NCBI GenBank assembly: GCA_014323795.1
Contig: JACONK010000017.1
Coordinates: forward strand, 1-39,217
Length of the DNA: 39,217 nucleotides
Direction of reading: 5' to 3'
Origin: Paracoccaceae bacterium
GTDB lineage: Bacteria > Pseudomonadota > Alphaproteobacteria > Rhodobacterales > Rhodobacteraceae
Below the pieces are notes generated by a model, which had not been told where the DNA came from, made no database searches, and saw only the letters and a program-made list of their open reading frames with translations. Both the position numbers and the translations under genes were made by a program. Within the stretch, counting starts at the first letter, position 1, and every line of letters starts with the position of its first letter. Positions 1,871 through 39,217 of the stretch are shown piece by piece.

Positions 1871-3313
1871 TCAGGCCATTTCATTGCCGATGTCTTCGGG
1901 TTTGACGAACTCGAAGTGGACAGACTTCAGATCGTCCCAACTCACCTCTTTCAGGGTGATGCCGGCACCCTCTTTCCAGCGCAGAACTGCGTTCTCTTTT
2001 TCTGATTCCTGCATCAGATTTCTTGATACCCGCATCAGGGTTTCGAAGTCGAGACTGCCGGAAGATATATCAAACTCTATCGTGTCCACCCCGATTTTGA
2101 AGTCGGTGATGGTGTCGCGGCCGTCTTCGTTGACCCGAAACACGAAGGTATCCGCACCGTCTGCGCCGGTGACGGTGCCGCCGCCGGTCAGCAGGTCATT
2201 GCCCGCGCCTCCGTCCAGCCTGTCGCCTCCGTCCTCGCCGTGCAGCCGGTCGTCACCGCCTTGGCCGTAAAGCGTGTCTTTTCCCACGCCGCCATAAAGC
2301 CTGTCGTTGCCGTCCGCAGCAGCGGTCAGCGTGTCCTCGCCCACGCCGCCGTCCAGCGTTTCTTTTCTTCGGCCGTACAGCGTGTCGTCGCCGGTGCCGC
2401 CGGTCAGCGTATCGCTGCCCGCACCGCCGTGCAGCTCGTCGTTGTGGGCATCGCCGTTCAGCACATCGTTGCCCGCACCGCCATCCAGCGTGTCGTTGCC
2501 CCCGCGGCCGTGCAGCTCGTCGTCATCCGCATCGCCGTTCAACACGTCGTTGTGGGCACCGCCGTCCAGCACGTCATCGCCATCGCCGCCGTGCAGCATG
2601 TCTTTGCCGATGCCGCCGTAAAGCCGGTCATCGCCACCAAGGCCGTTGAGTACGTCCTGCCCGGCACCGCCCTCAAGCCAGTTCACACTGTCATCCCCGG
2701 TCAGCGTGTCGTTATGGACGGAGCCGATCAGGTGCTCGATACGCACAAGCGTGTCGCCCGCCGCATCGCCACCGGAGTTTTTGACAGACTTATTCGGATC
2801 AAGACTAACCGTCACGCCATCCGGGGAGTTTGCGTAGGTCGCCGTGTCCCACCCGGCACCGCCGTCCAGAACATCAGCCCCCGGCCCGCCCTCCAGCGTG
2901 TCACGGTCAGCACCCCCGTCCAGGTTGTCCTTGCCGTCCCCGCCGATCAGCGTATCGTGGCCAGCGGCACCGCCCAGGTCGTCATCCCCTGGACCGCCAA
3001 TCAGCGTGTCGTTGCCGCCGGAACCCCAAAGCCGGTCATTCCCGCCACGGCCCTCAATACTGTTATCCCCGTGGTTGCCGTCAATCCGGTCGTTATGTTC
3101 GGTCCCGATCAGGTGTTTGACCAAGGTCAGATCATAGGATTCCGGCGGCTGATTTGCACCTTCCTGATGCAGGTTGTCGCCCTTCCACGGTTCCTTCCCT
3201 TTCGTCTTGCGTTCAGCCCAGGGGGTTTCATCCGGCCTGTTATCCTTTTTCAGCCGGACCCGGACGCCCTTGGCAGGATCACACGCAAAACTGGCGGTGT
3301 CTTTCGCGGTCAT
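1871..3313 (-). CDS. RTX calcium-binding repeat protein, 480 aa
   Basis: An in-frame ATG exists at 3328, but the one at 3311-3313 (MTAKDTASFA) has GGGGGAGG about 6 nt upstream and matches the N terminus of the left-edge paralogue, so it is chosen. After a charged head (~70 residues) come three blocks of RTX nonapeptides. The first two are separated by a DTATYANSPDGVTVSLDPNKS linker with an EHLIGSVHNDTLTG motif. The end (ADTFVFRVNEDGRDTITDFKIG) is the usual C-terminal cap of type I secreted RTX proteins. There is no catalytic domain and no Sec signal. It shares long nucleotide identity with the gene at 1-495, pointing to local duplication. Secretion and Ca2+ binding follow from the family; the biological role is not known. 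Confidence 0.87.
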   Translation of the reverse strand: MTAKDTASFACDPAKGVRVRLKKDNRPDETPWAERKTKGKEPWKGDNLHQEGANQPPESYDLTLVKHLIGTEHNDRIDGNHGDNSIEGRGGNDRLWGSGGNDTLIGGPGDDDLGGAAGHDTLIGGDGKDNLDGGADRDTLEGGPGADVLDGGAGWDTATYANSPDGVTVSLDPNKSVKNSGGDAAGDTLVRIEHLIGSVHNDTLTGDDSVNWLEGGAGQDVLNGLGGDDRLYGGIGKDMLHGGDGDDVLDGGAHNDVLNGDADDDELHGRGGNDTLDGGAGNDVLNGDAHNDELHGGAGSDTLTGGTGDDTLYGRRKETLDGGVGEDTLTAAADGNDRLYGGVGKDTLYGQGGDDRLHGEDGGDRLDGGAGNDLLTGGGTVTGADGADTFVFRVNEDGRDTITDFKIGVDTIEFDISSGSLDFETLMRVSRNLMQESEKENAVLRWKEGAGITLKEVSWDDLKSVHFEFVKPEDIGNEMA

Positions 3314-3505
3314 GTCTGCCTCCCCCATGCGTTACAAGCGGCGTTTACCAGCCCGATTACAGGGACGCAACATCTTTTTTGCCTTGCACCGCCCCCGCCC
3401 CTTTCCGGTGCGCCGCCACAGCCCGGATACCCCCCCGGCCAGGGGGTGCGGGCGTATTCCTTGCGGAAAACAGCCCGCACCGCACGGCGTTCCCCCGTGT
3501 CCCCG

Positions 3506-5734
3506 CTAGCGGCCCTGGCCGATGATGGCGTTCAGCGTCGCGCTCGGCCGCATAACGGCGGCCGCCCTGGCATCATCGTTCAGGTAATACCCGCCGGTAT
3601 CCGCCGCCGCCCCGGCATTGGCACCGAGTTCCGCAAGGATGGCGGCTTCACCCGCGGCCAGTTGCGCCGCCACAGGCGCAAAATGGGCCGCAAGTGCCGC
3701 ATCGCCGGTCTGCGCGGCCAGGGCCTCTGCCCAATACCGGGCGAACCAGTAGTGGCTGGCCCGGTTGTCGGGCTCCCCTGCCGTGCGGCCGGGGGACCGG
3801 TTATGATCCAGAATGCCCTGCGTCGCCAGCTCCGCCGCCGCACCCAGAATGCCCGCCCGGGCATTGCCCTTGCTCCCGGAAAGGAAGGCGAGCGATTCGC
3901 ACAGCGCACAGAACTCACCCATCGAATCCCAGCGCAGGTGGTTTTCGGCCTGCAGCTGCTGCACGTGCTTCGGGGCGGACCCCCCGGCCCCGGTTTCAAA
4001 CAGGCCGCCACCGTTCATCAGCTTGACGATGGACAGCATCCTGGCCGAGGTGCCGAGCTCCAGGATCGGGAAAAGATCGGTCAGGTAATCGCGCAGAACA
4101 TTACCGGTCACCGCAATGCTGTCCCTGCCCGCGGTGATCGTTTCCAGCGACCGGCGCATCGCCTCCCGCGGTGACAGGATCAGAAACCTGCCGGCCACGC
4201 CCGCACCGGCCAGCGCCGGCTTTACGTATCTGATCAGCTCCCTGTCATGGGCACGGGCGGCATCGAGCCAGAAGATCGCCTCTGCCCCTGTCAGGCGCTG
4301 GCGCTCAATGGCCAGCTGTATCCAGTTGTCAATCGGGGCCTTCTTCGCGGTGCATGCGCGCCAGATGTCGCCTGCCTCAACCTCATGCGCATGCAGCGTC
4401 TCGCCGTTTGCAAGCACGATGCGGATGATACCGCCGGCCGGTGCCTCAAACGTTGTGGGATGGGAACCGTATTCCTCCGCCTTTTGCGCCATCAGCCCGA
4501 CATTGGCAACCGCACCCGCCCTAGCCACATCCAGGGCACCGTTGGCCTTGAAGAAATTGATCGCCTCGTCATAGATCGGCGCATGGCAGCGATCCGGAAT
4601 CACGCAGGTGGTATCCCGCCGGGCACCGGTTTCATCCCAACACGTGCCACCCGCACGTATGATGGCGGGCATGGAGGCATCAATGATCACATCGGAGGGA
4701 ACGTGCAGGTTGGTGATGCCCCGGGCACTGTCGACCATATAAAGGGACGGACGGGGGAGCGCGGCTATCCCCGCCCTGATCGCGGCACCATTCGGCATAC
4801 TGTCGATGGCGGCAAGCACATTGCCAAGGCCCAGGTTCGGGGCACCGCCCGCGGCAGTGATGGCCGACCCAAAGGTTTCCCAGACCGGGCCGAGCCACGC
4901 CCTGACCGCGTGGCCGAAAATGATCGGGTCAGAAACCTTCATCATCGTAGCCTTCAGGTGGAACGAAAATATGGTGCCGTCGGAACGCGTTTCCTCAATC
5001 GCCCGCGCCAGAAATGTGGTGAGCGCACGGGCAGACATGAAAGCGGCATCGGCAATGGTACCTTCCGCCAGGGCCCAATTGTCTTTCAGAACGGTAACAG
5101 CACCGCCAGCGGCGACAAATTCAATCCGCGCATCACCTGCCTGCCCCGCAGTGATCGTGGCGGATTTTTCGTTGGCGCAGAAATCGTTGCCGGGCATGGA
5201 CAACACCCTGGTCTTCGATGTTCCATGCCAGGTTCCCATCGAATGCGGATTGGCCCGGGCAAAGTTCTTTACCGCCCGGGCCGCACGCCGGTCAGAATTG
5301 CCCTCCCGCAGAACCGGGTTCACGGCAGACCCCCTGATCGTGTCATAGCGGGCGCGGATTTCCCGGTGCGCATCCGTCTGCGGGTCTTCCGGGTAATCCG
5401 GCAGGGCATAGCCCTTGCCCTGCAGCTCCCCAATCGCCGCGACAAGCTGCGGCACAGAGGCAGAGATATTGGGCAGCTTGATTATATTCGCCCCGGGCGT
5501 TTTCACCAGGGCACCCAATACCGCCAGATCATCGGACCGGCGCCGGCTATCTGTCAGGTAATCCGGAAAGGCCGCAAGAATGCGCCCGGCCAGGGAAATA
5601 TCGCGCACACCGATCCCTATGCCCGCGGCAGCCGCAAAACCGCGGATGATCGGCAGAAGGGAAAGGCGCGCCAATTCGGGTGCCTCGTCAACCCTGGTGA
5701 AGATGATGTCCGGGGTGTGCTCCGGGGTGCCCAT
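3506..5734 (-). CDS. icd: Isocitrate dehydrogenase (NADP), monomeric type
   Basis: Converts isocitrate to 2-oxoglutarate with CO2 release and NADPH formation in the TCA cycle. The 742-aa length and sequence fit the monomeric IDH family (about 740 aa), not the ~400-aa dimeric enzyme. Recognisable stretches are an N-terminal PDIIFTRVDEAPELA segment, a NPVLREGNSDRRA block, KNFARANPHSMGTW (near residue 135), the GNDFCANEKS region, and a C-terminal NYW-like HYWFARYWAEALA. A TTG at 5752 could extend the frame, but the ATG at 5732-5734 has a GAGAGGA site 7 nt upstream and is preferred. It appears monocistronic: the RTX genes downstream are 190 bp away, and a repeat-rich leader lies upstream. Such IDHs are found in only some alphaproteobacteria, so it is a useful taxonomic marker. 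Confidence 0.95.
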   Translation of the reverse strand: MGTPEHTPDIIFTRVDEAPELARLSLLPIIRGFAAAAGIGIGVRDISLAGRILAAFPDYLTDSRRRSDDLAVLGALVKTPGANIIKLPNISASVPQLVAAIGELQGKGYALPDYPEDPQTDAHREIRARYDTIRGSAVNPVLREGNSDRRAARAVKNFARANPHSMGTWHGTSKTRVLSMPGNDFCANEKSATITAGQAGDARIEFVAAGGAVTVLKDNWALAEGTIADAAFMSARALTTFLARAIEETRSDGTIFSFHLKATMMKVSDPIIFGHAVRAWLGPVWETFGSAITAAGGAPNLGLGNVLAAIDSMPNGAAIRAGIAALPRPSLYMVDSARGITNLHVPSDVIIDASMPAIIRAGGTCWDETGARRDTTCVIPDRCHAPIYDEAINFFKANGALDVARAGAVANVGLMAQKAEEYGSHPTTFEAPAGGIIRIVLANGETLHAHEVEAGDIWRACTAKKAPIDNWIQLAIERQRLTGAEAIFWLDAARAHDRELIRYVKPALAGAGVAGRFLILSPREAMRRSLETITAGRDSIAVTGNVLRDYLTDLFPILELGTSARMLSIVKLMNGGGLFETGAGGSAPKHVQQLQAENHLRWDSMGEFCALCESLAFLSGSKGNARAGILGAAAELATQGILDHNRSPGRTAGEPDNRASHYWFARYWAEALAAQTGDAALAAHFAPVAAQLAAGEAAILAELGANAGAAADTGGYYLNDDARAAAVMRPSATLNAIIGQGR

Positions 5735-10692: not shown

Positions 10693-12618
10693 TCAGGCCG
10701 GGTCAGTTTCCATCCCGCCATCCCTGCGGCGTGATGTCCTGGTTTTGGGGATGGAGAAGACCGACGGCGTACCGCTGCCAATATCCGTATCATCCCCGTC
10801 GCCGTCGCGGCTGAGCGGTTCACCGGCAATCACCTTCGCGATTTCCGCGCCGGTAAGCGTCTCGTATTCCAGCAGGCCCTGGGCCAGGTTTTCAAGATCC
10901 TGTGCCCGCTCTGTCAAAATACGCCTGGCGGTGTCGTAGCCTTCGTCCACCAATTTCCTTACCTTATCGTCGATCAGCTTCTGCGTGATTCCGGAGTGGC
11001 TGGAGGACGGCTGGTAGTTACCGAGATAGCTCTGATGTTCATTGGCATAGTCGATATAGCCGAGATCTTCATCAAAGCCGAATTGCGTCACCATTGCCCG
11101 GGCAATGCGCGTCACCTGCTGGATGTCACTGGCCGCACCAGAGGTAACGTTCTCCCTGCCGAAGATCATCTCTTCAGCCACGCGCCCGCCCATCGCCATA
11201 GCGATCTGAGACTTGTATTTGGTATAGCTGACAGACAGCTGATCTCGTTCCGGCAGGCTAAGTACCAAGCCCAGGGCCCGGCCGCGCGGGATGATTGTCG
11301 CCTTGTGTATCGGGTCGTGCTGCGGGACATTAAGGCCGACTACGGCATGGCCGGCCTCATGGTAGGCAGTCAGTTTTCTCTCATCCTCGGTCATAACCAT
11401 GGACCGCCGTTCGGCCCCCATCATGACCTTGTCCTTGGCGTTTTCGAAATCCTCCATAGTCACGAAACGCTTACCGGTCCGGGCCGCCATCAGAGCTGCT
11501 TCGTTGACCAGGTTAGCAAGGTCCGCACCGGAGAAACCCGGGGTGCCGCGGGCAATAATGCGCAGGTCCACGTCTGCCCCAAGCGGTGTTTTGCGTACGT
11601 GCACATCGAGGATCCTGCGCCGCCCGTTGATATCCGGGTTCGGCACCTGCACCTGGCGGTCAAACCGGCCCGGGCGCAGAAGTGCCGGGTCAAGCACATC
11701 CGGGCGGTTGGTCGCTGCCAGAAGTATCACACCTTCGTTCGCTTCGAAGCCATCCATTTCGACGAGCAGCTGGTTGAGCGTCTGTTCGCGTTCATCATTG
11801 CCACCGCCATATCCGGCACCCCGATGGCGCCCGACGGCATCAATTTCATCGATGAAGACGATGCACGGAGCGTTTTTCTTTGCCTGCTCGAACATGTCAC
11901 GTACACGGGATGCGCCGACACCCACAAACATCTCTACGAAGTCGGAACCGGATATGGTGAAGAACGGGACACCGGCTTCCCCCGCGATTGCGCGGGCCAG
12001 CAGTGTTTTACCGGTACCCGGGGGCCCCACCAGCAGGGCACCCTTTGGAATTTTGCCGCCCAGACGGGAGAATTTCTGCGGATCACGCAGGAATTCAACG
12101 ATCTCTTCAAGCTCTTCCTTGGCTTCATCAATTCCGGCCACATCGTCAAACGTGACCCGCCCGTGGCGTTCATTCAGCAGTTTGGCCTTGGACTTGCCAA
12201 AGCCCAGGGCACCACCGCGGCCACCACCTTGCATGCGGTTCATAAAGAAGATCCAGATGCCGATCAGAATAAGAAACGGCAGCCATATCCCGAGGGCGGA
12301 CAGGAAACCGGACTGCTCTTGCGGTTTGGCGACCACGTCTATGCCTTCGGCGACCAGCAGGTTTACAAGCGCATCGTCCTGCTGCGTCGACCGCGGCTGC
12401 ACGGTGGCGTAGCGATTGCCGTCCGTGGCGATAACCGTGATCATTTCACCATCTATCTGAACCTCGGCAATCTTGCCGTCTTCGACATGGCTGATGAATT
12501 GCGAATAGGTCAGCTGACCATCAGATTGGCCATTTTTCCTGTTGGAGAACATGTTGAACAAGGCCACGATCAACAAAAACAGTACGACCCAAAAGATGAG
12601 ATTTCTGGTATTACCCAA
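10693..12618 (-). CDS. ftsH: ATP-dependent zinc metalloprotease FtsH (TTG start)
   Basis: A membrane-anchored AAA+ protease that degrades misfolded and regulatory membrane and cytosolic proteins. No ATG fits. A TTG at 12616-12618 has AGGAG 8 nt upstream and gives [16 protein letters not shown], the usual N terminus in Rhodobacterales relatives, so it is chosen; product 641 aa. Membrane segments lie at about residues 6-24 and 107-126 with a periplasmic domain between. Walker A GPPGTGKT is at 198-205, Walker B ends in DEID at 257-260, the second region of homology carries the arginine fingers (RPGRFDRQ), and the zinc motif HEAGH is at 420-424. It follows tilS by 84 bp, the usual alphaproteobacterial order. 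Confidence 0.97.
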
Positions 12619-12702
12619 GGCGGTTCTCCTGTTGGCGCAAGGATGGTGTGCCAAACCCTAATTCAGCGTTAGTGTAAAAGATAGGCTGCGGTTGTGGCGA
12701 TT

Positions 12703-13917
12703 TCAATACTTCAGGATGGATGAAAAGAAGCTCTCCGCACCGCCTTTCAAACGGCATGTCCAGGCACCGGCCTTACCCGCAAAGGGCGCACTTAGCAATT
12801 CGCCGTCGCGCCACAGTGAGGGTGAAGCGGCAAGCGCAATCCCGGACCATCCGGTTGCACGCCATTCGGGGCAGTCCCGCATGCCTTTTTTGGTCAGGGG
12901 CGCGACGGTGCCCGCGCTAGGGTCACATACCCACCGGGTATCATATGCGCCGATGTTTTCGGATACCGGCATGACCGCGATTTCGCGCACTATTTCGTAG
13001 AACCGGCCTCGAATTGGGTGTCCCATGCATCCATGCAAGGTATGCGGCCTTTCATCCATCATCGCTGCCCATAACCTGTCGAGCGCATTGGCCCGCGGGC
13101 GGTAATCGGCAGAGGCCACCCAGCAGAGCGTATGGGCAATCAACCGCAGGCGAAGCTCTGCCGGGGCGGCAGACAGCGCGGGGACGTCAAGGGCCACCGA
13201 ACCGATGTTGTATACCTCTGCGACCTGTCGGGCGAGAGCCAGGGTAGCCTCTTCCAGTGCCTGGCGTGCCCGCGCCATGCGGGCGGCGACCTGGCTGAAA
13301 TCTTCTGCGTGGAGACCCAATTCAGATAGCACTTTCAAGATTTTACGAGCTTTTACGCGGTCAAATGCCATGTCGTCGTTTGACGGGTCATCTGCCCAAA
13401 CAACACCCTTATGCCGGAGGTAGGCCCTTAAATCTTCCCGGCACCGGCCCAGCAGGGGACGCCACAGGGTCAATCCGTGACGGCGGCTTTCCATGGCCAT
13501 ACCGGAGAGCCCGTCCACCCCGCTGCCGCGTTTGAGACGCAGCAGAAATGTCTCCGCCTGATCGTTGAGCGTATGGCCGAGAACGAGCGTTCTCAAGCCG
13601 TGTCCCGCGGCCCAGTCCGCGAGCAAGCGGTAACGTGCCTTACGCGCATCTGCCTGCAGATTGCCCCCGGGGACATCTGTCCGGCGCAAAATATCGTGTG
13701 ACACGCCAAGAGCCGTGCACTGTCTTTCTACCTCTGCCGCCTCTTCGGCGGCACCATCACGCAGGCCATGATCCACCGTGGCAACCATAGTTTGCGCACC
13801 CGCATCAAGCAGGCCGTGCAAAAGCGCGAGGCTGTCGCTGCCGCCGGACACAGCGACGCCGACCCTGCCGGGATTACGCATCAGATAGTTCTTGAAAAGA
13901 TCCGCGTTCAGCCGCAT
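12703..13917 (-). CDS. tilS: tRNA(Ile)-lysidine synthase
   Basis: Modifies C34 of tRNA-Ile (CAU) to lysidine using ATP and lysine, so that the tRNA reads AUA codons. The 404-aa protein has the N-type PP-loop SGGSDS at residues 24-29, then VDHGLRDGAAEEA, GHTLNDQAETFLLRL and a DDPSNDD segment typical of TilS. The C-terminal ~150 residues are weakly conserved, as usual. The ATG at 13915-13917 overlaps the end of cpoB by 10 nt, which suggests translational coupling. In many alphaproteobacteria tilS sits between cpoB and ftsH, as here. Confidence 0.95.
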   Translation of the reverse strand: MRLNADLFKNYLMRNPGRVGVAVSGGSDSLALLHGLLDAGAQTMVATVDHGLRDGAAEEAAEVERQCTALGVSHDILRRTDVPGGNLQADARKARYRLLADWAAGHGLRTLVLGHTLNDQAETFLLRLKRGSGVDGLSGMAMESRRHGLTLWRPLLGRCREDLRAYLRHKGVVWADDPSNDDMAFDRVKARKILKVLSELGLHAEDFSQVAARMARARQALEEATLALARQVAEVYNIGSVALDVPALSAAPAELRLRLIAHTLCWVASADYRPRANALDRLWAAMMDERPHTLHGCMGHPIRGRFYEIVREIAVMPVSENIGAYDTRWVCDPSAGTVAPLTKKGMRDCPEWRATGWSGIALAASPSLWRDGELLSAPFAGKAGAWTCRLKGGAESFFSSILKY

Positions 13918-26757: not shown

Positions 26758-27522
26758 TCAGTCCATCTCCAATTCCGGCAGGGTGTTTACGATTTTCATT
26801 GTTTCCAGGCTGATGGTGATGACGCGGCAGAGCAGGTCCAGGGGGTAGCGGGGGTTTTCCATGGTTTCCCGTGCCCAGGCGTTGGCATCGTTCACGATAC
26901 CGCTCTTCCTGTCCGTGCGCAGGCCCTGGCGTTGCATGACCCATTCGATGGCGGGGCGACCGCTGACCACATATTCCCAGGCGGCCGGGGGAATACCGGT
27001 GAGTGTGATGTGATCGTTATAGCGGATGGTTGTGCGGTCCTTGTCGCGGGCGGTGCCGCCGAGGCGCATTTTGGTGACGCGATAAAAGGTGGCCGGGGCC
27101 GATTGGGCCAGGGGGTGCCGTGCCGGGTCGCCTTTCGCAAAGGTGACGGGGAAGGGGGTGGCGGTACAGAAGTTGACGTGCAGATCGCCCAGTTTCTGGC
27201 CGGCAGCGCGCAGCGCGCGGAAGGTTTCCGCATCGGGCGGCGGGGGGATGCGGGGGAGGGTGCGGGTGAGGTTGTTTTTGAAGCGGGTGCGGTAGGCTGG
27301 ATGGTGCAGCAGGCCGTAGATGTAGTGGAACAGATCGGTGTGGGTGAGGGGGGTGTCGGGGCAGGCGGTTTGGAAGCGGGCGCAGGCGGCGGGGGTGATG
27401 GCCGGGCGGCGCGGGGGCCGGATGCGGGACGGGGGTTCGTTTGGCGGGGCGGGATCGTAGAGGTACAGGGGGAAGCACTGGCCGACTTCTATCGCGCCGT
27501 CGCAAGGGATATGATCGGTCAT
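26758..27522 (-). CDS. C-terminal fragment of the Type ISP restriction-modification enzyme
   Basis: The 254-aa frame from the ATG at 27522 (MTDHIPCDGAIEVGQCFPLYLYDP) is the target-recognition/C-terminal part of the upstream gene, not an independent gene. The same frame stays open upstream through ENRVIIVTGPGAKSGFSCL, which is part of the same family block. The family's VYQMP...FP segment ends the other fragment at exactly this point. Recognisable blocks are HYIYGLLHHPAYRTRF, LGDLHVNFC, RYNDHITLTGIPPAAWEYVVSGRPAIEWVM and a YPLDLLCRVITISLETMKIV tail. One extra base in the 27608-27645 tract region would fuse it to the large fragment. Separate translation from the internal ATG is conceivable but has no strong ribosome-binding site. 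Confidence 0.85.
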   Translation of the reverse strand: MTDHIPCDGAIEVGQCFPLYLYDPAPPNEPPSRIRPPRRPAITPAACARFQTACPDTPLTHTDLFHYIYGLLHHPAYRTRFKNNLTRTLPRIPPPPDAETFRALRAAGQKLGDLHVNFCTATPFPVTFAKGDPARHPLAQSAPATFYRVTKMRLGGTARDKDRTTIRYNDHITLTGIPPAAWEYVVSGRPAIEWVMQRQGLRTDRKSGIVNDANAWARETMENPRYPLDLLCRVITISLETMKIVNTLPELEMD

Positions 27523-30500
27523 CAGGCAGGAAAAGCCGGACTTTGCACCTGGGCCGGTGACGATGATGACGCGGTTTTCCGCCGCGTCCCCCTCCCTGTG
27601 CGGGGGGAAGAGGTTGCCACCCCCCCGCCCGTGCGGGGGAAGAGTGCGGGCATTTGGTAGACACAGTTGTTCCAGTATCTGTCAAAATAAAGCCATTGTT
27701 TGGTGAAGGGGCGGTAGAGTGACGGGGTGATTGCGGATGGACGATACGAACCCTTCTTGCCCTTTGCCACGTCCTTCCTTTGCACCCGGTCCCAGCTGAT
27801 GTGTTGCGGGTCGTTGGTAAGGAAGTCTTCGGGCTTTTGGGTTTTGTCGGAGGCTTGGTAGCGATCAACCTCGGCGTTATAGGTTTCGATCATGCGCTTC
27901 ATGTTCGCGGCCAGGGTGGTTTTGCTGGCGTTATAGGCCCAGGCGTCGCGCCTTGTCGCCACGCCCATGGAATAATTCTCAAAAATCCCCTCTTCTGCAC
28001 CGCGCTTGGCGCCGAGGAGGGGGAATTGGTCAAAACCCGGGGCGTTTTGGTTCAGCCAGGTGCCGGCGGCGTCCGGGGTGACGGGCTGCCAGGCGCCGGC
28101 CCGGGTGATGCCATTGATGGATTGGAAGCTGCGCAGTTTGGCCAGTTTCTGCTTTTGGGAAAGGTTGTCGCCAATGTCGTGGAAGTGGATGCGGCCGTGG
28201 TGCGGGGCGGCGGGTTTTTTCACCAGGACGGAGATGGCGACGCTGGTCATGCTGGCCTGGCCAAAGATGTTTTCGCCTTCGCCGGCGGTGCCGCCGGAGA
28301 GCATATTTTTGCGAATGTCGCCGCGCAGGTGAATGATGTAGAGGTCGCTGAATTCGGCGGCGCAGCATTTGCGCAGGCCGTCGGCGGCCTTGCCATCGAT
28401 CCAGCCGGCATTGGTGACGAAGGCAATCACGCCCGACTCGCCAATGCGATCCGAGGCCCAGCGGAGGGCGCGGATGTAACTGTCATACAGGGCGTTTTTC
28501 AGGTGGGCGGTGGACTGCGCGGCGTAGGTGGTGCGGATGCGGGCGTCCAGGCCGGGGTAGGGCCGGTTGGCGGCGTTGTCATTCGCGCTCTTCTGGCCGG
28601 CGGAATATGGCGGGTTGCCGATGATGACGGTGATGTCTGCCGCGGCCTGGCGGGTGCGGCGTTCGGCATTATCGCGGAACAGGCTTTTGGCAACCAGATC
28701 GCGGGCCTGTTCATACATCTGAAAGGTGTCGGTCAGGGTCAGGCCGGGGAAGGGGGTATCATCCGTGCCAGCCTGTTCGGCGCAGGTGGTTTCGATGTTC
28801 ACGGCGGCGATGTAGTAGGCGAGGGGCACGATTTCATTGGCGTGGATCTCCTCAGCGTATTTGCGGGGCAGGTCGGCGGGCGGGAGCAGGCCGGATTGCA
28901 GCAGGCGGGTGATGAAGGTGCCGGTGCCGGTGAAGGGATCCAGGATATGGACGCCGGGGGCGCCCAGGGTGGTGCCGAAATGTTCGGCCAGGGCATCCTG
29001 GGCGGAGTGGAGGATGAAATCCACCACCTCCACCGGGGTGTAGACGATGCCGAGGCGCTGGGCCAGGGTGGGAAAGGCGGTGCGAAAGAAGCGATCATAC
29101 AATTCCAGGATCAGTTTCTGGCGCGCGCCGGCGGTGCTTATGCCCTCTGCCCGCCTGCGCACGCTTTCGTAAAAGCGTTCAAGGCTGTCTGCCTCGCCGG
29201 CGTCCGCGGCCGGGCTGGCCAGTTGGCCGAGGGCGGTGGCCATGGCACGGGACACGGGGTTGCGGGCGGCGGCGGTGCTGCCCTGAAACAGGGCGTCAAA
29301 GACCGGCCGGGTGATCATGTGCTGGGCCAGCATCTCAATGGCCTCGGCTTCGGTGATGGCGGGGTTCAGCTCTTCGTGCAGGTCCGCCAGGAAGGTGGCC
29401 AAGGCCTCCCGTGCCGGGCCGGGCTGTGCGGTGGCGGCGGTGATGCGGGCGATGTGGGCCCCTGCTATGGCGGCGATGTCTGTGGCCCAGTTTTCCCAAT
29501 ATTCGCGGGTGCCGCATTTTTCCACAATTCTGGCCATGATGGCGCGGGTGAAGGACTCCAGGGCGAGTTCGTATTGCGCGGCGGCTTCGTTTAAAGTGCT
29601 GATGTCCGGCCCGGCGGCGGTTCCGCCGCCGATATCGGCGCGGGCGGGTTGGCTGGTGGCGGTGGCGAAATCTGTGGCAATGGCGGTGGTGGGCAGGGCG
29701 GGCAGGAGGATATCCAGTTTATCGCGGATGTCTTCGCCCAGGCCGGCCTGGTTGATGCGGGCATCCAGCCGTTCATCGTGGGCGCGCAGGGCGTTGAGGA
29801 TTTGCCAGACGGTTTGGAAGTGTTCATTGTTGTTCAGGGCCTGGTCGGGTTCGGTACCGGGCGGGATGACGACGGGCAGGATAACGTAGCCCAGGGTTTT
29901 GCCGGGGGCGCGGCGCATGACGCGGCCGACGGCCTGGACCACATCCACCTGGCTTTTGCGGGGGTGCAGAAACATGATGGCATCCAGGGCGGGAACATCG
30001 ACGCCTTCGGACAGCAGTTTGGCGTTGGTCAGGATGCGGCAGGGGGTGTTGTCCGGGGTGGTGGTGCCGTTGCCCGTGTCGGGGTCTTCCCGGAGCCAGC
30101 GCAGGGCGTCTTCGCGCCCGGTGGCGTTGAAGGTGCCGTCAATATGGCGCAGCTCCACCGCCTGGGCCGGGGCATCGGGGGTTGTTGCGGTGTATTCCTG
30201 CACGACGGAGGCGAATTCCTGCCCGATGATTTTGGAGGATTTGATGCTGTTGCAAAAGGCGATGGCGCGCTGCATCGGGCGGCTGCCCTCCCCGGGCATG
30301 TCTGCCTTGGTCAGCGCGCGGTAGCAGCCGATGATTTTCGTGGCGTTATCCGCAGAAAGTTCCGGGCCGTCGCGCATGCGGGCAAGGATGGTGTCGGGGA
30401 TGTGCCCCTCATCGACGGCGAGGACCACCACCTTGTAATCGGTCAGCAGCTGTTCCTGGACCGCCGTGCCGAAGCCCAGGTGAAACAGGGTTGCGCCGAA

Positions 30501-31652
30501 CATGGCGGTGTTATCCATGGAGGCGAGGGTGGCCCCGTGATCATCGGCCTTGCGTTTTGCCGGTTCGGCAAAGATGCGGGGTGTGGCTGTCATATACAGG
30601 CGTTTGCGGGCCTGCACATTTTCATCGCTGTGGATGCGCCGGAAGGCGCTTTCCCCCTGCCCCTGCAGCGTCACGCCGGTGGTGCGGTGCGCCTCATCAC
30701 AAATGGCCAGGTCAAAGGGCGGCAGGCCGTGGTTCTGTTGGGCGGCTGTCAGCACATCGATGGAATGATAGGTGGCGAAGATCACCGTCATCTGCCCGGC
30801 CGGGATCCGGGCCGCCTGGCGGGCCAGCTGTGCCGCATCGGTTGTGGCGGGAACGGCCAGGTCGTGAAGGGTGAGATCCAGGCTGTCCGGGTCCGTCCGT
30901 TTGCCGATTGCGGTATCGGAACAGACAGAAAAGGCGGTGAACGGCCAGGTGCAATCGGTTTTCCAGGCGCGCAGGGTCTGCTGCATCAGGGCCAGGGAAG
31001 GCAGCATATACAGCACCCGGCCGGCCATGCGTTCGGCAATGGCCAGGGCGGTGAAGGTTTTGCCGGTGCCGCAGGCCATGATCAGTTTGCCCCGGTCCGC
31101 CGTTTCCAGGCCCGTTGTGACTGCCTCCAGGGCATCCTTCTGGTGGGGGCGCAATTCTTTCCCTGGGGTCTGGGTGACGGTGCCGTCCTGCAGGAACTGC
31201 TGCCAGTTGAGGCTGCCGGCCTCCAGTTCTGCCAGGGGGATGCGGCGCCAGGGTTTTGACAGCCGGTCCAGGGTGGTTTGCGCGTTTCTGACGGGGCCTT
31301 CGGCGGTTGTGTCGATGAGGATCAGTTCCGCGAAATCCCTGTTTGCGGCGGCGGCGATGAAACTGTCGATGGCGGGTTTATTGATATGCCGTGCCTCCAT
31401 GAATTTGCACTGGATGGCGGCGTGGCCGGTGCCATCGGCCCGGGTGGCCACCAGATCGATCCCGGTATCGGTGCGGGGCAGGCCACGGGTGGCGGCCCAT
31501 GCGCCCCAGGGCTGCACATCGGACCAGAGATCCCTTTGCACCGGGTCGTGCAGCAGCCAGGTGCGCACCACCCTTTCAAAATACGCGCCCTTTTCGCGTT
31601 CTGACCGGGCATGGGTGCGGGCGTTTTCCAGAAGCTGCCGGAGGGAGGGCAT
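27522..31652 (-). CDS. Type ISP restriction-modification enzyme, frameshifted large fragment
   Basis: Single-chain Type ISP enzymes (LlaGI/LlaBIII group) cut unmodified DNA after translocating along it and protect host sites by N6-adenine methylation. The ATG at 31650-31652 has AAAGGACAGG upstream. In order: an Mrr-like PD-(D/E)xK nuclease (GIDLVA Asp66, IQCK Gln81-Lys83); an SF2 helicase with Walker A MACGTGKT (192-199), ICDEAH (317-322), MTATPR (354-359) and QAVGRVMRR (about 580); a helical coupler; a gamma-type methyltransferase with DPFTGTG (about 905) and NPPY (about 1011); then LYRPFTKQWLYFDRYWNNCVYQMPALFP. After this Pro the frame runs into about 35 non-homologous residues and stops. 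All catalytic motifs are intact, but without the C-terminal target-recognition part the enzyme should not recognise its site. Full length after repair is about 1630 codons, normal for the family. Confidence 0.92.
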   Translation of the reverse strand: MPSLRQLLENARTHARSEREKGAYFERVVRTWLLHDPVQRDLWSDVQPWGAWAATRGLPRTDTGIDLVATRADGTGHAAIQCKFMEARHINKPAIDSFIAAAANRDFAELILIDTTAEGPVRNAQTTLDRLSKPWRRIPLAELEAGSLNWQQFLQDGTVTQTPGKELRPHQKDALEAVTTGLETADRGKLIMACGTGKTFTALAIAERMAGRVLYMLPSLALMQQTLRAWKTDCTWPFTAFSVCSDTAIGKRTDPDSLDLTLHDLAVPATTDAAQLARQAARIPAGQMTVIFATYHSIDVLTAAQQNHGLPPFDLAICDEAHRTTGVTLQGQGESAFRRIHSDENVQARKRLYMTATPRIFAEPAKRKADDHGATLASMDNTAMFGATLFHLGFGTAVQEQLLTDYKVVVLAVDEGHIPDTILARMRDGPELSADNATKIIGCYRALTKADMPGEGSRPMQRAIAFCNSIKSSKIIGQEFASVVQEYTATTPDAPAQAVELRHIDGTFNATGREDALRWLREDPDTGNGTTTPDNTPCRILTNAKLLSEGVDVPALDAIMFLHPRKSQVDVVQAVGRVMRRAPGKTLGYVILPVVIPPGTEPDQALNNNEHFQTVWQILNALRAHDERLDARINQAGLGEDIRDKLDILLPALPTTAIATDFATATSQPARADIGGGTAAGPDISTLNEAAAQYELALESFTRAIMARIVEKCGTREYWENWATDIAAIAGAHIARITAATAQPGPAREALATFLADLHEELNPAITEAEAIEMLAQHMITRPVFDALFQGSTAAARNPVSRAMATALGQLASPAADAGEADSLERFYESVRRRAEGISTAGARQKLILELYDRFFRTAFPTLAQRLGIVYTPVEVVDFILHSAQDALAEHFGTTLGAPGVHILDPFTGTGTFITRLLQSGLLPPADLPRKYAEEIHANEIVPLAYYIAAVNIETTCAEQAGTDDTPFPGLTLTDTFQMYEQARDLVAKSLFRDNAERRTRQAAADITVIIGNPPYSAGQKSANDNAANRPYPGLDARIRTTYAAQSTAHLKNALYDSYIRALRWASDRIGESGVIAFVTNAGWIDGKAADGLRKCCAAEFSDLYIIHLRGDIRKNMLSGGTAGEGENIFGQASMTSVAISVLVKKPAAPHHGRIHFHDIGDNLSQKQKLAKLRSFQSINGITRAGAWQPVTPDAAGTWLNQNAPGFDQFPLLGAKRGAEEGIFENYSMGVATRRDAWAYNASKTTLAANMKRMIETYNAEVDRYQASDKTQKPEDFLTNDPQHISWDRVQRKDVAKGKKGSYRPSAITPSLYRPFTKQWLYFDRYWNNCVYQMPALFPRTGGGVATSSPRTGRGTRRKTASSSSPAQVQSPAFPA
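27594..27644. repeat. Direct repeat with C/G tracts at the Type ISP frameshift
   Basis: gtgcggggggaagag (27598-27612, six G) and gtgcgggggaagag (27631-27644, five G) are copies of one element, with a run of seven C between them (27620-27626). On the coding strand the copies are 32 nt apart; one more base makes the unit 33 nt, or 11 codons, and joins the two enzyme fragments in frame. The element is GC-rich and partly palindromic and looks like a small dispersed repeat that entered the gene. Confidence 0.75.
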
Positions 31653-31715: not shown

Positions 31716-32038
31716 TTATGGCATGATGTGCCCGACTGTCAATGTGGGTACCGTCTGGCCGGCATGGCCAGCTGAGGCCATTTGGGCCTCCCCGGTTTGC
31801 GGAAGCCCCGCCTTTTGTGCAGCCTGGGCATCAAAGCAGGTTACCGCTGCCCCGGTATCTATCAATGCAAGGCCGCTTACGGGGGCAGGCGGGGCCTGGT
31901 TGTGGCGGGTTGCTGCGCATCGCCGGGGGGTGTGCGTGTTACCCGCAGGGGCGGGCCATGGTGTGCCAGGGTTTCCGGGGCGGGTTCAGATTTCCCGTCC
32001 GGGGTTTTGCTTTCATGCCTGGCGTTCAGGATTGGCAT
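31716..32038 (-). pseudogene. Retropepsin-like aspartic protease, frameshifted and truncated
   Basis: The ATG at 32036-32038 overlaps the upstream 87-aa gene by 13 nt and reads MPILNARHESKTPDGKSEP ... AHHGPPLRVTRTPPGDAQQPATT before going out of frame (stop at 31877-31879). A second frame, open from about 31978, reads QAPPAPVSGLALIDTGAAVTCFD, then AQAAQKAGLPQTGEAQMASAGHAG. This holds the Asp-Thr-Gly-Ala active-site loop and surroundings of retropepsin-like (clan AA) aspartic proteases. Adding one base near 31896-31906 joins PATT to QAPPAP. The protein then ends early (TVPTLTVGHIMP), about 110 residues where I expect about 150, so the C-terminal sheet is missing. It lies 63 bp ahead of the Type ISP gene. 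Confidence 0.7.
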
Positions 32039-32289
32039 GGGATGCCCAGGGCAAGCACGGGTACGGTGAATGTCGGGGTGCCTTCCCCCGACAGGCGCAC
32101 AAAAAAGGGGCCGCGGCCGAAGCGGCGCATGCCCTCTGCGATAGCCATTTTTCGGGTTGCAAAATGGCCGATCAGTGCCGCCCCCTTGATCAGCAGGTGG
32201 CGGTTGGTGTGTTTGTGCAGGAATTCATCCCGGCGGGATTCGTAAAACGAGCGTTCCCGGGACAGGGGGTTTTGCGGTTTGTTTGACAT
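32026..32289 (-). CDS. Small conserved protein paired with retropepsin, 87 aa
   Basis: The ATG at 32287-32289 has an ACAGGCAAAAC leader very like the ACAGGAAAAC ahead of the Type ISP gene. The N-terminal half is charged and helical (SRERSFYESRRDEFLHKHTNRH). The core LLIKGAALIGHFATRKMAIAEGMRRFGRGPFFVRLSG resembles the small DUF5678-type domain, in which an 'is this mine' strand and a helix-Phe-Gly segment recur; this is recalled from memory and not tested. The gene overlaps the retropepsin start by 13 nt, which implies translational coupling. From memory, similar small proteins are found next to retropepsin-like genes elsewhere. Molecular function unknown. Confidence 0.72.
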   Translation of the reverse strand: MSNKPQNPLSRERSFYESRRDEFLHKHTNRHLLIKGAALIGHFATRKMAIAEGMRRFGRGPFFVRLSGEGTPTFTVPVLALGIPCQS

Positions 32290-32345
32290 GTTTTGCCTGT
32301 TCTTCGGGATTTTGGTTGGTGGTTGATGCGGGGTGCACCCGGCGT

Positions 32346-32567
32346 TCAGGGGCTTTTCAGGAAAGCCGGAATAACGAGTTGCGCCCGGTGATCCGCGAGT
32401 TTCCGGATATGCTGAAGGGTTTCCCGCCCGGTTTCCGGATCACTGGTTGCAAGGAACCGGGCCAGAGTGTATTGGAGCTGTATGTTGACCTCCTCCAGGC
32501 CGAGGTCGGAAAGCGCATGGGAAGGTGTGCCCGCTGCATCCTCCTTTTCCAGAACAGCATCCGGCAT
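32346..32567 (-). CDS. Small hypothetical protein, 73 aa
   Basis: The ATG at 32565-32567 lies behind AGAAGGAAAG on the minus strand. The product has a polar N terminus (MPDAVLEKEDAAGTPSHA) and two predicted helices (LEEVNIQLQYTLARFLA and GRETLQHIRKLADHRAQLVIPAF). There is no signal peptide, membrane segment or recognised family. It is 56 bp upstream of the 87-aa gene on the same strand, so it probably leads a small operon that reaches the retropepsin remnant and the Type ISP gene. The size and the palindromic promoter region would suit a regulator or antitoxin, but nothing in the sequence proves it. Confidence 0.55.
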   Translation of the reverse strand: MPDAVLEKEDAAGTPSHALSDLGLEEVNIQLQYTLARFLATSDPETGRETLQHIRKLADHRAQLVIPAFLKSP

Positions 32568-32603
32568 ATTCAGTCTTTCCTTCTGTCCAGTGTTTTATCG
32601 TCC

Positions 32604-32648
32604 AGTATAAAGAGCAAGGCAAGGTGCCTTGCAAGGTTTCGCAGTATA
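32604..32648 (-). promoter_or_regulatory. Palindrome between two -10-like boxes ahead of the 73-aa gene
   Basis: GCAAGGCA-agg-TGCCTTGC (32614-32632) is a perfect 8-bp inverted repeat. On the minus strand it lies between two TATACT hexamers, at 32643-32648 and 32604-32609. A TTGCAA (32629-32634) stands 19 bp from the second hexamer and overlaps the palindrome. Placement 50 bp upstream of the start codon suits a repressor-controlled promoter of the small-gene operon. Confidence 0.5.
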
Positions 32649-37877: not shown

Positions 37878-39217
37878 TTATACAACGAAAAGAGACAGGA
37901 TGGTGGACTCCGATAAATCTTCGTCGTCCACGTCCCACAGCACCAGGGCGTTGCCGTTCAGGGTAATGGTAGTGCTGTCATTTTCACCATCCCCGTCCCT
38001 GTCGTGGGTGGCGATGGTCAAATCATCAAGGTCCAGCCCGGAGTAATGGATGATATCGAAATCCACATCCAAATCGGTGATGACCGTGCCGTCCGCCCAG
38101 TCCTCTTTGAAGACGAAGGTGTCGTAATCACTGCTGCCACCACCTGTCAGCGTGTCGGCCCCGCCTTCGCCCCTGATCCGGTTGCTGCCGTCATCCCCTG
38201 TCAGGGTATCGGCAAAGCGGGAGCCGCGCAAACGCTCAATACTATACAGCCGGTCCCCTTCGGCGGTGCCGCCGGAGTTTACCGTGCCATCGACCAGGCT
38301 GACGGTCACCCCTTCCCTTGAATCGCGGTAATCTGCCGTGTCGCGGCCGCCCCGGCCATAGATCCTGTCGGCCCCTTCGCCACCGCGAAAGGTGTTGTGG
38401 CCGTCTGAATCGTTCGTCCTGCGGTGGCCCTTGAGCACATCATCGAAGGCGGACCCGATGATATGTTCAACATTCTTCAGTTTGTCACCTTCGGCATGGC
38501 CGCCGCGGGCGGTGACAAAGCCGTTCGCGTCCACGCGGGTCGTATCTGTTTCCCATTGACCGGCACCTGTCTTGCGCTGCGTCGCAAGGTCCACCCGCAC
38601 GGCGGCGTCCGAGTGCCGGTAATTGACCGTGTCCCGGTGATCGTCACCCTGACCGTCGCCGCCATTGATGGTATCGGCCCCGGCCCCGCCGATAAAGACG
38701 TTTTTTGAGTTGTTGCCGGTGAGCGTATCGGCGAAGGCGGACCCGATGATGTTTTCAAAGCCGGTGGTCCTATCACCCTGGGCGTGGCCGCCGGAGTTTA
38801 CCGTGCCATCGACCAGGCTGACGGTGACGCCGGCATCGGAGGTGCTGTAATCCAGCCGGTCGCGCCCGTCCCCGCCATCCAGCGAATCGGCCCCGGCACC
38901 GCCCCGGAACAGGTTGTTGCCGGCATCCCCGGTCAGCGTATCGGCGTGGTCTGACCCGATGATATGTTCCATATTTTTCAGCTTGTCGCCGGTGGCATGG
39001 CCGCCGGAGGCGGAAATATAGCCGTCCGAATCCTGCGTGCCGCCGAGGTCTACGGTAACGCCGGCATCCGACCCGGTGTAATCTGCCCAGTCGCGGCCGC
39101 CGCGGCCATCCAGCGTGTCGGCCCCGGCACCGCCCCGAAACAGGTTGCCCCCGTCATCGCCCAGCAGCGTATCGGCGTTGCCGCCGGCGATAACCTCCTC
39201 AATATTGCGCAGGATAT
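37878..39217 (-). CDS. Large modular RTX calcium-binding protein, 5' part cut by right edge
   Basis: The stop is at 37878-37880 and the frame stays open to the last base, so the start lies outside; at least 446 codons. The protein is built from long modules: an RTX pair (GGAGADSLDGGDGRDRLDY), a beta segment SDAGVTVSLVDGTVNSGGHAQGD, an EHIIGSAFADTLTG motif, and again RTX. At least four modules are visible. The C terminus (DYDTFVFKEDWADGTVITDLDVDFDIIHYSGLDLDDLTI ... SESTILSLFVV) is the usual cap and type I secretion signal region of RTX proteins; the ATG at 38972 is internal. Ca2+ binding and export follow from the family. No enzyme domain is visible in the part present. Confidence 0.88.
   Translation of the reverse strand, partial: ILRNIEEVIAGGNADTLLGDDGGNLFRGGAGADTLDGRGGRDWADYTGSDAGVTVDLGGTQDSDGYISASGGHATGDKLKNMEHIIGSDHADTLTGDAGNNLFRGGAGADSLDGGDGRDRLDYSTSDAGVTVSLVDGTVNSGGHAQGDRTTGFENIIGSAFADTLTGNNSKNVFIGGAGADTINGGDGQGDDHRDTVNYRHSDAAVRVDLATQRKTGAGQWETDTTRVDANGFVTARGGHAEGDKLKNVEHIIGSAFDDVLKGHRRTNDSDGHNTFRGGEGADRIYGRGGRDTADYRDSREGVTVSLVDGTVNSGGTAEGDRLYSIERLRGSRFADTLTGDDGSNRIRGEGGADTLTGGGSSDYDTFVFKEDWADGTVITDLDVDFDIIHYSGLDLDDLTIATHDRDGDGENDSTTITLNGNALVLWDVDDEDLSESTILSLFVV
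38268..38306. repeat. 39-bp exact direct repeat inside the RTX gene, second copy at 38787-38825
   Basis: The two copies are identical and 519 bp (173 codons, in frame) apart; they code for the same VTVSLVDGTVNSGG module segment. Near copies of the HIIGS-coding segment lie around 38450, 38740 and 38950. The identity at the DNA level marks module duplication or exchange. Confidence 0.85.

Follow-up and report, generated by a model that had tools for sequence, protein, structure and literature searches.

Why does the Type ISP restriction-modification gene at 26758-31652 (minus strand) lie spread over two reading frames: is the enzyme lost, can it be switched, or was one base misread in the assembly? 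The window, that is, the whole stretch of 39,217 nt analysed here, is contig C17 of a genome of 2.58 Mb in 37 contigs (98% complete). According to Pfam, the large ORF encodes an Mrr_cat_2 nuclease, a ResIII/DEAD/Helicase_C ATPase, an ISP_coupler, an N6 methyltransferase and the first third of Type_ISP_C; the latter profile is split, with positions 2-110 in the large ORF and 109-342 in the other frame (Table 1). Read over both ORFs, the order Mrr-like nuclease, SF2 ATPase, coupler, N6-adenine methyltransferase and Type_ISP_C is that of Type ISP. The large-ORF translation contains, by eye, GIDLV..QCK, ACGTGKT, DEAH, DPFTGTG and NPPY, which we take to be the Type ISP catalytic motifs. Type ISP enzymes are single polypeptides, and here there are two frames with a break at 27589-27635; the gene is a broken copy of the family and not a working member. 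The best PADLOC model, labelled Type IIG, spans 3-1358 and 1358-1640 of its 1646 positions over the two parts, the second-best is labelled Type I, and NCBIfam holds no family named Type ISP. The nearest copy is locus L031 on contig C16 of the MAG GM7ARB1 (genome G101), with 80.5% amino acid identity to the large ORF over 1337 codons and 77.7% to the 3' part over 269 codons.

The gene is flanked on one side by valyl-tRNA synthetase and inositol-phosphatase genes and on the other by Bax1-I, ornithine/aspartate carbamoyltransferase and class-III aminotransferase genes, and no defence family was found among the scanned neighbours (Pfam, and PADLOC on two of them). Small minus-strand ORFs lie upstream of it, at 31719-32594, one of them presumably, by its resemblance, an aspartyl-protease-like fragment. 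These small ORFs had no tblastn match beside the tested homologues, except for a short stretch beside a decayed remnant in G101 that is described below. Elsewhere in the window, many RTX calcium-binding nonapeptide repeats occur in genes at 747-1775, 1871-3328 and 37878-38972, and a C10 at 694-703, longer than any other G/C run there, adjoins the end of the first of these genes (minus strand), with no evident feature downstream of it.

In the initial annotation the large fragment was said to leave the family right after VYQMPALFP, and the ORF at 27522-31652 confirms it; the missing family block, NRVIIVTGPGAKSGFSCL...GQCFPLYLYDP, can be read without interruption in the neighbouring frame until the stop at 26758. 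Family-like sequence stops at the codons LFP (27636-27644) and restarts at DAAEN (from 27588 downwards), and the net gain of 44 nt between them is not divisible by three. The + strand carries, at the junction, C5 (27588-27592), G6 (27602-27607), C7 (27620-27626) and G5 (27635-27639), so that the five-G and six-G runs with seven C between them are present as described. The starts of the two repeat copies are 32 nt apart and the spacing is 33 nt beyond the C/G run, which implies a one-base difference in that run; the arithmetic by which one added base restores the frame is right. The idea of a C/G-tract duplication stood in part: the direct repeat is better than chance would give (none of 500 dinucleotide shuffles equals it), but it is imperfect, with about 24 nt similar and unrelated spacers, and a duplication is what it suggests rather than what is seen. 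A 52-nt stretch with four G/C runs of at least 5 is found in the window at this junction alone, and a 400 kb sample of the genome has none. A hairpin or quasi-palindrome as the cause found no support, the inverted repeat being matched by 36 of 500 shuffles and the folding z being -1.57, with 13 of 200 shuffles equally stable.

Table 1. Features of the split Type ISP gene and its junction (window positions)
Feature	Position	Strand	Remarks
Large ORF of the split gene	27522..31652	-	1376 aa; final 37 residues are out-of-frame read-on
3' part, neighbouring frame	26758..27588	-	Remaining Type_ISP_C (profile 109-342), open to its natural end
Extra GC-rich segment	27589..27635	-	47 nt, from LFP to DAAEN; one codon in homologues, hence net +44 nt
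Repeat copy 1	27622..27644	-	Initial 9 nt are the conserved LFP codons
Repeat copy 2	27588..27612	-	Diverged from copy 1
Longest junction homopolymer	27620..27626	.	C7 on the + strand
G6 run of copy 2	27602..27607	.	Counterpart of the G5 run of copy 1 (27635-27639)

That a Type ISP enzyme is broken in its target-recognition region had been rightly recognised: Type_ISP_C is split in Pfam, and on the solved relative 7lo5 the two parts abut at chain positions 775 and 774. Of the solved chains, LlaBIII (4xqk) and LlaGI (5ffj) match the large part best, and their domain order is that of the split gene; they are single intact chains, whereas the window chain ends inside the recognition core, at about LlaBIII residue 1332, up to which the large ORF (P0001) aligns. 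As given in the available part of PMC4872093, LlaBIII residues 1291-1448 form the recognition core and 1448-1578 the guide, so the truncated product would be without most of the core and without the guide, and target recognition would be lost with them.

Homologue loci were taken from a C-terminal scan as the best 80 of 292 relatives; the scan relies on conserved C-terminal peptides, so that copies without that end are missed. The spacing between FP and N was not measurable in 8 of these 80 loci. Among the 72 measurable ones it is FP-x5-N in 66, six residues in four loci, four in one and eight in one (range 4-8). None of these 72 carries the junction insert, which is absent too from the nearest copy (about 80% identical), where the sequence reads IFPHPGAENRV; one repeat copy alone already exceeds the usual family length at this place. 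Programmed ribosomal frameshifting, which would join the two frames into a full-length enzyme, seems very improbable: the frames do overlap and a G7 run lies inside the overlap, but the arrangement is found in one genome only and in no measurable homologue from the best 80 of 292, and no classic slippery heptamer was seen by eye in the right phase of the overlap.

The same comparison bears on phase variation, in which a gain or loss of C/G-run length or of repeat copies would switch the enzyme and the assembly would represent the off state. The repeat copies are one base apart in the C/G run, the break lies where a change of length alters the frame, and the rest of the frame is clean, all of which speaks for such a switch. 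However, the position of the repeat is unconserved, the 72 measurable homologues (best 80 of 292) being free of the insert, and by arithmetic an in-frame state with both copies would enlarge the 5 residues of the family to about 20.

The length of the runs argues in the same direction. G/C runs of 5, 6, 7 and 8 number 575, 134, 22 and 5 in the 400 kb sample, and, counting the one at the junction, runs of exactly 7 occur 25 times in 439 kb; with 5-7 nt, the junction runs are of a length usual for this genome. Beyond that, the sample holds 5 runs of length 9, none of 10 and 3 of at least 12, compared with 0.8, 0.16 and 0.04 by extrapolation. The excess over geometric decay starts at about 9, and the longest junction run is 7. 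Long runs in excess, with G/C runs of at least 11 at 23 distinct sites (67 overlapping hits) in the genome, would favour a switch, as does Campylobacter jejuni NCTC11168, where 29 loci with G/C tracts of at least 7 are reported, 28 of them assayed as phase-variable (PMC4965091, available part). For random sequence at about 60% GC we estimate by hand roughly 6 sites with runs of at least 11. Thirty-two congeners gave 0-8 raw hits (26 of them none) compared with 67 in the window's genome, counts that are uncorrected for base composition, and some other genera have many more hits than this genome. G/C tracts longer than 2 are described, in the part of PMC2831843 at hand, as generally under-represented in the genomes evaluated there.

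The long runs of the genome (for example C18:75539, C22:47122 and C37:4408; loci L176 and L194-L212) possibly mark a set of switchable genes. In the 21 contexts covered out of the 23, runs of 11-16 lie in ORFs or in intergenic sequence, some of them at or near contig ends or beside N runs, and three of eight ORFs scanned at such runs match Pfam (Proton_antipo_M, HEPN_Swt1 and Sulfotransfer_2).

Within the family, the tracts that would support a switch lie in other copies. In L031, a C18, an N run and a C12 follow one another from position 4808, in the methyltransferase part, which makes a poly-C of at least 18 that is absent from the window's copy. We take the N run inside it for an assembly gap; the gene was assembled in frame across the poly-C, the length of the N run being arbitrary. 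This tract makes L031 a strong candidate for Type ISP switching by slippage, although the gene also has a late in-frame TGA. In L091 the frameshift falls exactly at a G8 (5404-5411), and L106 has a G9 in frame (5207-5215). Against this, runs of at least 8 were found in only 3 of the 80 homologues (best 80 of 292), some of these loci being partial. For the window gene itself we regard phase variation as quite unlikely. The wider proposal, that the Type ISP genes of marine Alphaproteobacteria and some other bacteria would be a slippage-switched defence, with poly-C/G tracts and short GC repeats that grow at differing places of the gene (the window junction, L031, L091 and L106) and with a wider switchable set in this genome, is still more doubtful.

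A one-base assembly or sequencing error in the C/G run would leave a real gene that is intact and has an in-frame repeat. The absence of any further lesion in the gene is what such an error predicts, and elsewhere in the genome contigs end in or close to poly-C/G runs and N runs adjoin such tracts, which indicates that the assembly is weak there. The junction runs, however, are only 5-7 nt long, and 22 of the 30 other window ORFs scanned have Pfam matches, which in the long single-profile ones span practically the full profile (IDH 2-733 of 734, FTHFS 1-556 of 556). Moreover, an error would leave the extra segment of about 44 nt unexplained, no enlarged loop being present in the 72 measurable homologues (best 80 of 292). 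We consider this explanation unlikely.

Apart from the break, there is no stop in the 1614 codons of the gene. Counting stop-forming changes only, the expected number of stops reaches one at 0.007-0.0085 neutral substitutions per site, with a 95% bound of 0.021-0.026, and dS to the nearest copy is 0.31-0.33. The break should therefore be recent relative to the divergence from L031, unless it is reversible or otherwise not permanent, or an error. With respect to L031, dN/dS is 0.40 in the part before the break and 0.50 in the part after it; GC3 is 0.80 and 0.81. Since the two repeat copies differ more than such a recent age allows, the repeat probably predates the frame break, unless the copies had diverged before their arrival.

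For the initial annotation, one and the same shift in all related strains would have spoken against its reading; this is not what was found. In a search of 101 genomes, own included, 7 genomes match at E 1e-50 or better. Two of them (G002 and G003) match at 34-35% identity in the front part only, and four others have a clear Type ISP gene: G022 with a frameshift near residue 929, G093 with one near 1270, G031 with a large internal deletion, and G085 with an open frame. L031 has its in-frame TGA in the C-terminal part. The near relatives are broken by different lesions, and not by the insert of the window gene. In the broader collection (best 80 of 292), contig ends truncate 9 of the 80 loci, and broken and intact copies were counted among the other 71, the assessable ones. 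Nine of these 71 have a visible stop, frameshift or deletion (L031, L049, L055, L066, L069, L071, L083, L091 and L107; L066 is G022 and L083 is G031, and L069 and L071 look like one identical sequence), and three more (L087, L098 and L110) match in the C-terminal portion only and are either broken or differently built. The frame is open over at least 1450 codons in the other 59 of the 71 (best 80 of 292), which speaks against breakage as the rule; two of these, L068 and L084, were classed as open by length and may carry lesions at their ends.

DNA similarity to GM7ARB1, whose sequence is also that of G239, of the same family and another genus, is confined to the gene (26771-31648, 80-86%); the neighbouring genes have counterparts of 68-78% similarity, which are found on other contigs there. 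On contig C20 of G101, at about 12142-12833, there is a second, decayed and rearranged Type ISP remnant (L162), which carries a piece of the upstream flank of the window gene (32515-32646). From these comparisons we infer that the window gene is horizontally acquired.

Regarding the extra segment, no source was found in the own genome, in relatives, in plasmids or in a family search of 248 genomes. The insertion of a dispersed repeat element was discarded: BLAST of a 67-nt element against the own genome returned itself and 11 fragments of 14-21 nt, and its 9 shared 13-mers in the 400 kb sample are ordinary for GC-rich segments of the window (719 controls, mean 9.4, median 5). The 67-nt element had no match in plasmids. 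Apart from the window, matches of 21-33 nt were obtained from nine genomes in the 248-genome family search; one of these matches is to the GM7ARB1 gene (L153, the same sequence as L031), and the others look like unrelated GC-rich places. A module pattern, built from two of the own sites and hence not independent of them, occurs at 3 own sites and at 1 site in 60 relatives. With 2 mismatches allowed it occurs at 9 sites in the own genome, against 4 for the reversed control, and at 5 against 1 in G101.

Among the three possibilities originally offered (a switch, a fixed loss or an assembly error), a recent loss fits best, and a switch finds no support in tract length or in conservation. We assign a probability of about 0.62 to the recent and ordinary loss, through one lesion, of a mobile and often-broken Type ISP gene. 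A GC-rich, partly repeated segment would have grown or inserted in a loop of the recognition core, with a net change of length not divisible by three. Translation would then run off past the first third of the recognition domain, keeping the nuclease, ATPase, coupler and methyltransferase in a truncated product that should not read its DNA target and would thus have lost its activity. The in-frame repeat may have come first and the one-base change in the C/G run later, an order that would explain diverged copies with an otherwise clean frame. Since a single chain with a single recognition domain serves restriction as well as modification, the two would be lost together; the cell would suffer no harm from the break, and genes of this kind could come and go. 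It should be noted that a single clean lesion is equally expected of a reversible switch or of an assembly error, and that the G/C runs clustered at the break, unmatched in 400 kb, are suggestive of something other than ordinary loss.

Known systems resemble the window gene in part. In the homopolymer phase-variable Type IIG and III methyltransferases of Helicobacter pylori and Campylobacter, a C/G run lies at the frame break, as it does here. For the Campylobacter Type IIG enzymes, tract length reportedly changes between strains. To our knowledge, no phase-variable Type ISP enzyme has been described. Length changes between strains are also given for the homopolymer-switched Type IIG and III enzymes of H. 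pylori in the available part of PMC3936762. For the window gene, the comparison covered one genome per species. The Type ISP gene of H. pylori HP0667-HP0668-HP0669 (M.HpyAXVIII) is likewise split by frameshifts in the sequenced strain, as the same part of PMC3936762 reports; these frameshifts, however, reportedly do not stem from sequence repeats, whereas the window break sits at one, and the methyltransferase-specificity part of M.HpyAXVIII is active alone, whereas in the window gene the recognition part itself is cut. Among the literature matches listed, this is the only source whose available part holds the term 'type ISP' (PMC6346686 was set aside).

If the gene were a switch after all, it would be the first known phase-variable Type ISP enzyme, and would place Type ISP beside Types I, III and IIG, in which phase variation is known. 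L031, with its long poly-C, is a better test case for switching than the window gene. Under the preferred reading, a recent ordinary loss, the window gene would be another single-chain restriction gene that spreads alone and is lost by a single lesion, in this case caught early.
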